DNA of 64,000 nt, from positions 868,001 through 932,000 of the forward strand of contig NZ_CP074406.1 of assembly GCF_018388425.1 (NCBI RefSeq), read 5' to 3'. Positions within the stretch are counted from its first letter, which is position 1. Each line of letters begins with the position of its first letter. The DNA comes from Nocardioides faecalis. Lineage in GTDB: Bacteria; Actinomycetota; Actinomycetes; Propionibacteriales; Nocardioidaceae. The notes under the pieces were generated by a model, which saw only the letters and a program-made list of their open reading frames with translations, was not told the DNA's origin and searched no databases. This document shows, piece after piece, positions 43,116 to 45,071 of this stretch. A program made the position numbers and the translations under genes.

Positions 43116-43218
43116 GCCGCCGGTCGCCACACGGGCTCTCCAGGGGGCTCCCCAGGGGGTCTCCACAGGGCACGCAGGGGCCGTTGTGCCCCGTGGGCAC
43201 GACTGCTCGGATGACACC

Positions 43219-43977
43219 GTGACTCGGCCCCGCGTGCTGCCGCAGCTCGCCGACGGCTTCCTCGACCTCGTCCTCGGCTCCGGCTGCGTCGCCTGCACCC
43301 GACCCGGCCGGGCGCTGTGCCCAGCGTGCCGCGCCCGGCTGCCCGTCGGCGCCGCGCCGTGCTGGCCGAGCCCCACGCCCGCCGGGCTGGTGCCGCCGTA
43401 CGCCACCGGCGCCTACGACGGTGCGTTGAAGGCGATGGTGCTGGCGCACAAGGAGCGCCGGGTGCTGGCGCTGGCGGCACCGCTGGGCGGGCTGCTCGCG
43501 CAGTCCGTGGCCGCCGCGCTCGACGACGCCCACGTCGCGGGCGAGCCCGTGGTCCTGGTGCCGGTGCCGTCCCGGCCGGCCGCCGTGCGCCAGCGCGGCC
43601 ACGACCCCACCCGGGCGATGACGCTCGCCGCCGCCCGAGCGCTCGGCGGGACCGTGCGCACCGCCCGGCTGCTGCGCACCCGACCGGGGCTGGTGGACCA
43701 GGCCGGCCTCGACCGCCGGGCCCGCGCGGCCAACCTCGCCGGTTCCATGGCCGCCCCTGCGGACGCCGTACGACGCCTCGCCGTGCGGGTGCCGCAGGCC
43801 CGCGTCCTGGTGTGCGACGACGTGGTCACCACCGGCGCCACGCTGCGCGAGGCACAGCGCGCACTGGCCGCGGCCGGGGTGCCCGTGCTCGCCGCAGCGG
43901 CGGTCGCAGCCACCCGCCGCCGGGTCGCGGCGCCCGAAGGGAGGGGTGCCCTTTTGCCGGACTCGGCGACGGACTAA
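43219..43977 (+). CDS. comF: ComF family phosphoribosyltransferase-like protein
   Basis: 252 residues from the GTG at 43219. The N-terminal zinc ribbon has CVACTRPGRALCPACRARL (two CxxC pairs), and the C-terminal PRT domain has ERRVLALAAPLGGLLA, VPVPSRPAAVRQRGHDPT and the PRPP loop RVLVCDDVVTTGATLREA. ComF helps DNA uptake in competent bacteria, but its role in actinobacteria is untested. It lies in the usual place between lpqB and hpf. The 103 bases upstream contain short imperfect repeats (CTCCCCAGGGGG type, about 43140-43170). Its TAA stop overlaps the -10 box of the downstream RNA. Confidence 0.92.
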   Translation: MTRPRVLPQLADGFLDLVLGSGCVACTRPGRALCPACRARLPVGAAPCWPSPTPAGLVPPYATGAYDGALKAMVLAHKERRVLALAAPLGGLLAQSVAAALDDAHVAGEPVVLVPVPSRPAAVRQRGHDPTRAMTLAAARALGGTVRTARLLRTRPGLVDQAGLDRRARAANLAGSMAAPADAVRRLAVRVPQARVLVCDDVVTTGATLREAQRALAAAGVPVLAAAAVAATRRRVAAPEGRGALLPDSATD

Positions 43978-43980
43978 CGT
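43953..43980 (+). promoter_or_regulatory. Promoter for the comF-hpf intergenic RNA
   Basis: TTTGCC (43953-43958) and TAACGT (43975-43980) are 16 bases apart. The -10 box includes the comF TAA stop. Predicted transcription start near 43987. Confidence 0.5.
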
Positions 43981-43986
43981 CTTTCC

Positions 43987-44232
43987 ATGGAGTCCGCCCG
44001 GGTCCGTGGTTGCGCAGCACCACGCGGGTGCGAGCCCGACGTGGTGGAGCAAGCCGATGCCAGTCGCAGGCGAAACGGTCCACGTAAGTCGCTGTCCGCA
44101 GCGATGATCACGGTGCGGCTTAGCAGTAAGCCCTGCCTCGGCCCGGACGCCAGATGTGTCCGACGTCGGGAGAAGGTGGGTAGTGGCACCAAGCTGCGAG
44201 AGCCTCAGCAGGCGGGTGTGGGGTCGAAGACC
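43987..44232 (+). ncRNA. Structured non-coding RNA upstream of hpf, candidate raiA RNA
   Basis: No coding frame here shows codon bias, and the GC content is below its surroundings. Many local stems are possible in order: GTGGT/ACCAC (44006/44019), CGGG/CCCG (44025/44035), a long-range ACGTGG/CCACGT (44039-44044 with 44080-44085) enclosing CCG/CGG and GCC/GGC, TCGCTG/CAGCGA with a TCCG loop (44089-44104), GGCTTA/TAAGCC with a GCAG loop (44117-44132), CGGAC/GTCCG (44144-44162), GGTG/CACC (44175-44190), GCTG/CAGC (44193-44209) and GGTC/GACC (44222-44232). The raiA RNA motif is a known, functionally unexplained structured RNA found upstream of hpf (raiA) genes in Actinobacteria and Firmicutes. 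Position and size fit; I could not test the covariance model. Confidence 0.62.
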
Positions 44233-44267
44233 AGGTCGGCCGGGCGGACTCCTCCCGCACCCCGTGA

Positions 44268-44407
44268 GCCCGGTGCCGGGCCCACGCACCATGCGCGGCC
44301 GAGCCGCGCCCGCCGCGCCGATCGGCGCGGTCCCCTCAGCCTCTTCCCGAGCCCATCGCTGGTCGAGAACCGTGCCAGCGCGAGACATCCCGCCCACCGT
44401 GGCGGGA
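44268..44407 (+). promoter_or_regulatory. Hairpin-rich 5' leader of hpf
   Basis: Rest of the 461-base non-coding interval. GCCCGG/CCGGGC hairpin at 44268-44281; a perfect 18-base palindrome CCGCGCCGATCGGCGCGG at 44313-44330; and TCCCGCC/GGCGGGA (44388-44394 with 44401-44407, 6-base loop), ending 20 bases before the GGAGG site of hpf. The last could attenuate or shield the leader. No second promoter is evident, so hpf may be read through from the RNA promoter. Confidence 0.45.
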
Positions 44408-44438
44408 GACCCATCACACCAACCACTGGAGGTAACTG

Positions 44439-45071
44439 ATGGACGTTGTGGTCACCGGACGGAATTGCGAGATCACGGACCGGTTCCGTGCACACGCAGC
44501 CGAGAAGCTGTCCAAGCTCGAGAAGCATGATCACCGGATCATGCGGGTCCACGTCGAGGTCGACTGTGAGCCCAATCCCAGGCAGTACGACCAAGCCGTC
44601 CACCTGGAGCTCACCGCCTACTCCAAGGGACCCGTGATCCGCGCCGAGGCCGCCGCCCCCGACAAGATGGCCGCCCTCGACCTCGCCCTGGACAAGATGG
44701 CCGCCCAGATGCGCAAGGCCGCCGACCGCCGCCGCGTGCACCGCGGACGTCGTGCGCCGGTCTCGGTCGGTCGGGCGCTGGCCGACCTGCCCACCGCCGA
44801 CGACGCCGGCACCGACACCGCCGACGACGGCCCCGTCGAGCGCCAGGTCGGTCCGATCACCGTGACCGGCGACGGCCCGCTGGTGGTGCGGGAGAAGACG
44901 CACCACGCCACGCCGATGACGCTCGACCAGGCCCTCTACGAGATGGAGCTGGTCGGCCACGACTTCTACCTGTTCGTCGACAAGGAGAGCGAGCGGCCCT
45001 CGGTGGTCTACCGCCGCCGCGGCTACGACTACGGCGTGATCGCGCTCGACCTCGAGGAGACCGAGGACTGA
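44439..45071 (+). CDS. hpf: Long-form ribosome hibernation promoting factor
   Basis: Binds the 30S decoding centre and, in the long form, dimerises to make 100S ribosomes in stationary phase or stress. 210 residues from ATG 44439 with GGAGG 6 bases upstream. N-terminal S30AE domain: DVVVTGRNCEITDRFRAHAAEKLSKLEKHDHRI, HLELTAYSKGPVIRAEAAAPDKMAALDLALDKMAAQMRK (in parts). A flexible acidic linker (about residues 115-145) leads to the C-terminal dimerisation domain VVREKTHHATPMTLDQALYEMELVGHDFYLFVDKES (in parts) ending GVIALDLEETED. Regulation through the long leader and the upstream RNA is likely but inferred. Confidence 0.97.
   Translation: MDVVVTGRNCEITDRFRAHAAEKLSKLEKHDHRIMRVHVEVDCEPNPRQYDQAVHLELTAYSKGPVIRAEAAAPDKMAALDLALDKMAAQMRKAADRRRVHRGRRAPVSVGRALADLPTADDAGTDTADDGPVERQVGPITVTGDGPLVVREKTHHATPMTLDQALYEMELVGHDFYLFVDKESERPSVVYRRRGYDYGVIALDLEETED

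Follow-up and report, generated by a model that had tools for sequence, protein, structure and literature searches.

What is the element that separates comF from hpf in Nocardioides faecalis, and is it only a structured RNA? The question arises from a 64,000-nucleotide stretch of the genome (contig NZ_CP074406.1, positions 868,001 to 932,000; hereafter the window), in which the original prediction placed a hairpin-dense RNA with its own promoter upstream of hpf and named the raiA RNA motif as a candidate. The element at 43987-44252 is, with virtual certainty, a member of the raiA motif / ModT RNA family (Table 1), and as a raiA RNA this copy is not new. What appears to be new here is an open frame, predicted to be leaderless, that runs through the raiA RNA of actinomycetes, which the first reading of the sequence had overlooked and of which no earlier account was found in the open-access literature.

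The cmscan search gave a match to RF03072 (raiA RNA) at 43993-44248 on the forward strand, complete over model positions 1-209, with 139.6 bits against a gathering cut-off of 101.3 and an E value of 2e-34. This was the sole above-gathering Rfam match in the window, and one raiA RNA copy was found when the entire 3.86 Mb genome was searched with RF03072. The identity rests on this score together with the conserved pseudoknot and helices and the comF/hpf synteny, and the predicted structured RNA and its raiA reading are both borne out. A GC content lower than that of the neighbours had also been noted; the interval (68.0%) is indeed below comF (79.3%) and the window (73.2%), but hpf has only 69.4%.

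Table 1. Features of the comF-hpf region, in window coordinates.
Feature	Position	Strand	Remarks
comF, ComF-family phosphoribosyltransferase-like protein	43186..43977	+	stop TAA 43975-43977 supplies the first three bases of the raiA -10 box
-35 element TTTTGC (predicted)	43952..43957	+	17-nt spacer; TT at -35/-34 from the ATG conserved in 203 relatives
-10 element TAACGT (predicted)	43975..43980	+	A of the ATG 7 nt downstream; begins with the comF stop codon
Leaderless start ATG at predicted +1	43987..43989	+	same place in nearly all actinomycete raiA loci
raiA motif / ModT RNA	43987..44252	+	spans predicted TSS through extended P1; matched by Rfam at 43993-44248
ORF, 150 codons, whole raiA RNA and tail	43987..44439	+	TGA 44437-44439 overlaps hpf ATG (TGATG)
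P1 5' strand	43989..44011	+	third base of the ATG lies within it
P2 hairpin	44014..44050	+	length variable; changes are multiples of three across relatives
P3 stem-loop	44054..44078	+	loop 44062-44068 forms pk-1
P4 5' strand	44079..44083	+	pairs with 44218-44222; 100% of cells paired
P5 hairpin	44089..44104	+	variable length, multiples of three across relatives
pk-1 3' half	44114..44120	+	pairs with 44062-44068; 100% of cells paired
P6-P7-P8 domain	44132..44212	+	cryo-EM variant 2 architecture
P1 3' strand	44229..44252	+	CUCC 44249-44252 read directly
Tail between RNA and hpf	44253..44438	+	frame kept open; strong GC hairpins, without T-tract terminator
hpf, ribosome hibernation-promoting factor, 210 aa	44439..45071	+	TIGR00741 yfiA, 78.4 bits against a cut-off of 40.9

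The window RNA folds with a z score of -3.5, and none of 200 shuffles was equally stable. A structure derived jointly from the Rfam alignment and the cryo-EM description in the literature was tested on 48 divergent actinomycete copies, in which 96% of the cells were paired and 23 pairs had changed on both sides, against 13.0 +/- 1.3 in shuffles; when the structure was slid by 1-3 columns, at most 44% of the cells were paired. The covariation thus supports the raiA fold in actinomycetes, and the compensatory changes proposed as a check of the prediction are present. P1, which closes the whole RNA, is 99.5-100% paired in the 48 sequences with 8 pairs changed on both sides, and it is lengthened by the pairing of GGAG (43989-43992) with CUCC (44249-44252). 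The RNA therefore ends at about 44252; the end first proposed, 44232, is too short and omits the P1 3' strand. The seven pairs that join the P3 loop to the pk-loop (pk-1) are present in every one of the 48 copies, and the cryo-EM structure has seven cis pairs in pk-1. In P4, CCAC (44080-44083) pairs with GUGG (44218-44221), invariant in the 48 sequences. The long-range pairing ACGTGG/CCACGT originally suggested is not the conserved one, because ACGTGG belongs to an arm of P2 and CCAC pairs with this GUGG. The P6-P8 domain (variant 2, helices 9-12) is 90-100% paired in the same set. P2 aligns poorly because its length varies; 188 of 190 copies of it fold as a single end-closing hairpin with a median z of -3.5. 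Length variation is likewise the reason that the window P5 pairs are not upheld across the MAFFT alignment (helices 7 and 8). By reading only, GUAGU...GCGAGA in P8 looks like the reported E-loop.

The raiA RNA was found in 89 of 98 genomes of the genus Nocardioides, in 102 of 395 genomes sampled across the class and in 137 of 396 sampled across the phylum. The suggestion that the window holds a new example in this lineage is therefore not upheld, as the family, known from Bacillota and Actinomycetota (PMC11706538), was already described for this phylum and is present in nearly all species of the genus. All 85 Nocardioides loci have comF upstream and hpf downstream. For wider comparison, actinomycete raiA RNAs with an ATG at the exact +1 place were collected and deduplicated by sequence, giving 203 copies; 199 of them lie between comF and hpf in the same order and direction within 500 nt. 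The loci were found by conserved anchors and Rfam hits, a procedure that favours well-conserved copies and is blind to frame. A search of viral contigs with HPF found no relative.

The predicted promoter is supported by comparison. TANNNT, with TANNGT as the usual form of the -10 box, occurs in 202 of the 203 relatives at a spacing to the ATG of 6 nt (173 copies) or 7 nt (29 copies), which places the predicted +1 at the A of the ATG; a further 12 actinomycete-type copies have GTG in this position. The -10 box TAACGT and a start near 43987 agree with the original prediction, and its -35 element TTTGCC is better replaced by TTTTGC. A plain sigma-70 consensus scan of the window did not pick up the raiA promoter. 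The comF stop, which supplies the first three bases of the -10 box, ends 9 nt before the ATG in 51 loci.

The frame that begins at this ATG was first seen to be open in Nocardioides, where it crosses the whole RNA in 83 of 85 loci while the other frames are nearly always closed, and where the RNA lengths are nearly all equal modulo three; the hypothesis was then tested on other actinomycete families. Frame 0 is open through the RNA in 197 of the 203 copies, against 13 for frame 1 and 12 for frame 2. By type, 117 of the 119 Nocardioides-type copies and 80 of the 84 other ATG copies are open, with the other two forward frames open in 7+0 and 6+12 cases, respectively. All three classes of total length show the same (131/133, 37/38 and 29/32 open), so the openness does not stem from one inherited length. 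Of 84 raiA RNAs without the ATG (clostridia, other lineages and GTG types), 8 have frame 0 open; for actinomycete-type RNAs without ATG the figures are 7 of 12 with GTG and 1 of 4 with no start codon. The closed copies are six with ATG (L018, L022, L146, L272, L288 and L301) and five of the 12 with GTG. The earlier statement that the interval has no coding frame is thus right as to codon bias, the GC by codon position of the window ORF being flat (70/70/71), and wrong as to the frame itself, which is conserved across actinomycetes.

Three stop triplets belong to the conserved core, UAA between P4 and P5, UAG in the pk-loop and UAG in P8, and each blocks one phase. They fall in the ATG frame in 0 of 180, 1 of 175 and 5 of 154 copies, respectively, and at the last two sites both remaining phases are common (81 and 93 for the pk-loop UAG, 41 and 108 for the P8 UAG). 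Simple tallies of this kind retain nonindependence; changes were also counted by parsimony on FastTree trees of the hpf and comF proteins. On this tree the minimum number of phase changes at the P4/P5, pk-loop and P8 sites was 11, 18 and 24, of which 0, 1 and 4 led into the stop phase. Length changes were multiples of three in 50 of 66 cases in P2 (p 2e-12) and in 39 of 52 in P5 (p 1e-9), against an expectation of one third, whereas the control spacers gave 51 of 132 (RNA to hpf) and 25 of 88 (comF to ATG). Of 33 length changes within the RNA but downstream of its final stop-bearing site, only 7 were triplets, and most were single-base. P2 contains no in-frame stop in 2717 codons, where 53 were expected from shuffled P2, and of 186 copies 172 lose the open frame when one nucleotide of P2 is deleted computationally, and 177 when two are. 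The triplet constraint is confined to those parts in which a shift would bring a stop into frame; neither hairpin geometry nor a general indel bias can be its cause. These patterns in sequence and tree argue that the ATG frame in the raiA RNA is very probably under selection to stay open.

Simpler sources of an open frame were rejected. Chance or base composition does not account for closed alternative frames, for stops missing from P2 when its shuffles contain them, or for flanking spacers without triplet bias, and a structural periodicity of hairpins is at odds with the changes seen between P8 and the 3' end. Readthrough from comF is excluded by the comF stop, which precedes the ATG at varying distance, and for a gene on the opposite strand no reverse frame is consistently open.

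A conserved peptide was rejected as well. Differences in P2 fall almost evenly on the codon positions (154/191/146 in 68 disjoint close pairs), with no third-position excess; the same comparison on the tail had 14 pairs, too few to use. comF and hpf have strongly third-position GC, in contrast to the flat ORF, and no Pfam or NCBIfam family matches the ORF product. Downstream parts of the frame are read in two or three phases in different clades and yield unrelated residues. Without a codon-position sign of selection on the peptide, the selected feature would be openness, that is, ribosome transit, and the peptide itself probably does not matter. Repeated in-frame inserts, with the frame staying open, were seen in P5 of three loci (L076, L067 and L079) and in the tail of two (L055 and L085).

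The end of the frame is related to hpf. Past the RNA, stops stood at 66 for frame 0, against 47 and 35 in the other frames. The ORF terminates between -60 and +5 relative to the start of hpf at 58% of loci, compared with 25% and 18% when the other two frames are read, and its end position correlates with the distance to hpf (Spearman 0.40, p 8e-9). With RNA-hpf distances of 34-322 nt, 14 loci have a TGATG-type overlap, which is found in the window at 44437-44441 as a direct stop/start overlap; the other frames have 1 and 2 such overlaps. Coupling of stop to start is not a general rule, since at about 30% of loci the frame continues, out of phase, beyond the start of hpf. In relatives, hairpins of the tail (44253-44438 in the window) exceed those of shuffles, with stems of at least 7 pairs in 50% versus 22% (141 loci). 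These hairpins are without T-tracts and may be terminators of the actinobacterial type; a T-tract terminator scan of the window found none.

Relatives without the RNA separate the start from the long frame. All 11 Nocardioides without an RNA match keep the comF-hpf synteny and TANCGT-N6/7-ATGGA(G/A), and their ORFs, of 4-75 codons, all stop before hpf. In RNA-less genomes of other families, TANCGT-ATGG is kept before hpf in L358, L359 and L361 and is missing from several others. As promoter and ATG are kept without the RNA, the leaderless start outlives the RNA, and the long open frame goes with it. Three of the RNA-less Nocardioides loci (L342, L343 and L345) have a leaderless ORF of 4-7 codons, a GC hairpin and a T-rich stretch before hpf, an arrangement that resembles a leader-peptide attenuator. 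The comF-hpf spacer of L343 measures 1.3 kb and contains a tandem array whose repeat unit is about GGCGTGCGTGGGGTGGC. In L351, an RNA-less locus of the same family, the promoter is followed by a minimal start-stop frame, ATG-TAA, 37 nt before hpf.

Leaderless translation in mycobacteria requires a 5'-terminal ATG or GTG, which by itself suffices (PMC4633059), and it is mostly 70S ribosomes that bind leaderless mRNAs (PMC9031893). The actinomycete raiA RNA, supposedly noncoding, is probably read by ribosomes, and leaderless translation in vivo from the ATG at 43987, the predicted transcription start, appears likely. We favour, with moderate confidence, the reading that the raiA RNA of actinomycetes is the body of a leaderless ORF upstream of hpf in which folding and translation compete. 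With transcription starting at the A of the ATG, as predicted, a ribosome would load directly on the 5' end. Ribosomes loaded on the nascent 5' end would run through and keep the RNA unfolded, and their passage may shield the transcript from early termination and, by coupling, pass ribosomes on to the start of hpf. With little ribosome loading, P1 would instead close, including the third base of the AUG, and allow folding into raiA/ModT; closure of P1 and occupation of the nascent 5' end by a ribosome would be mutually exclusive. The folded RNA could then act in trans, shut off the downstream gene, or both. That this competition forms a switch setting the level of hpf is a tentative proposal, to which we give somewhat less than an even chance. 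More speculative, and rather doubtful, is a translation-gated raiA RNA, whose translated or folded state would report free ribosomes and set hpf against the trans-acting RNA. In clostridia, the raiA RNA acts in trans without an ORF (PMC11706538), hence its core function cannot need translation.

The main mechanistic rival, itself unlikely, holds that translation of the ORF serves solely to protect the transcript from Rho on the way to hpf, with neither a switch nor a tie to the folding of the RNA. Openness without peptide conservation is just what such anti-polarity would produce, and the attenuator-like hairpins of RNA-less relatives with very short ORFs fit it too. These relatives, however, reach hpf with ORFs of 4-30 codons over 100-160 nt, so that a long open frame would not in itself be needed for this.

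Less probable again is a plain noncoding raiA RNA acting in trans, with the frame as a by-product of RNA conservation, much as spurious ORFs are well known in 23S rRNA. The noncoding, trans-acting raiA/ModT of Clostridium and a peptide that is unconserved, lacks codon bias and belongs to no Pfam or NCBIfam family would suit this reading. It leaves unexplained why the variable hairpins change length only by triplets when the flanking and 3' controls change freely, why variable P2 has no stop, and why the stop phase alone is avoided with both others in use. Moreover, the frame is open in all three length classes, the effect is absent from raiA RNAs without ATG, and the ATG and promoter persist after loss of the RNA.

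A ligand-binding riboswitch or attenuator acting in cis on hpf is marginally less probable still. Rfam types RF03072 as cis-reg; riboswitch, and the elaborate fold always stands upstream of hpf in actinomycetes; against this, trans complementation and the lack of an adjacent hpf argue against a cis riboswitch in C. difficile, and the window is without a T-tract terminator downstream. The weakest alternative, that the ORF encodes a functional small protein, is very improbable, since the blocks that recur in the peptide (a start MES/MAP-x-RVRGC, and ADASRR(R/L)NGPRK) follow invariant RNA sequence, phase differences give unrelated residues elsewhere, and neither P2 nor GC shows a codon-position signal.

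Translation competing with folding remains the preferred reading, and selection for ribosome transit across the whole RNA would tie the raiA RNA physically to the ribosome and to ribosome hibernation. The case also warns that structured RNAs held to be noncoding can carry leaderless frames, which annotation ignores because the peptide is not conserved.

The actinomycete copies share with the raiA motif RNA / ModT of Clostridium acetobutylicum and Clostridioides difficile the full-length covariance match, P1-P8 with pk-1, comF upstream, hpf/raiA downstream, and an own promoter with a transcription start at the foot of P1, both predicted in actinomycetes. What sets them apart is the ATG at the predicted +1, an additional hairpin (P2) and the open frame maintained across the RNA, whereas the clostridial copies are noncoding, lack such an ATG, have stops in the frames and possess a T-rich promoter of the usual sigma-A type. 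An abundant, stable, trans-acting raiA transcript is known for clostridia only. The ModT study treats Acetohalobium arabaticum as a member of Actinomycetota; in the NCBI taxonomy this organism belongs to Bacillota, so the complementation in that study included no actinobacterial copy (PMC11706538).

Mycobacterial leaderless upstream ORFs (PMC4633059) have ATG or GTG at the first base of the transcript, as is predicted for the raiA ORF; like it, they lack a Shine-Dalgarno sequence and are short, unannotated and placed before a gene. The raiA ORF differs from them in that it overlaps a large structured RNA throughout, and its openness, not its sequence, is conserved. With leader-peptide attenuators and coupled leader ORFs it would share an upstream translation that competes with folding; unlike them, it is without special codons, no terminator/antiterminator pair was seen in the window, and the competing structure is itself a trans-acting RNA family. 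Dual-function RNAs such as SgrS and RNAIII carry the ORF in a separate part of the RNA and encode a functional peptide. They resemble the raiA ORF in that one transcript combines an RNA role with a reading frame, whereas in the raiA RNA the ORF and the fold overlap completely and the peptide drifts.
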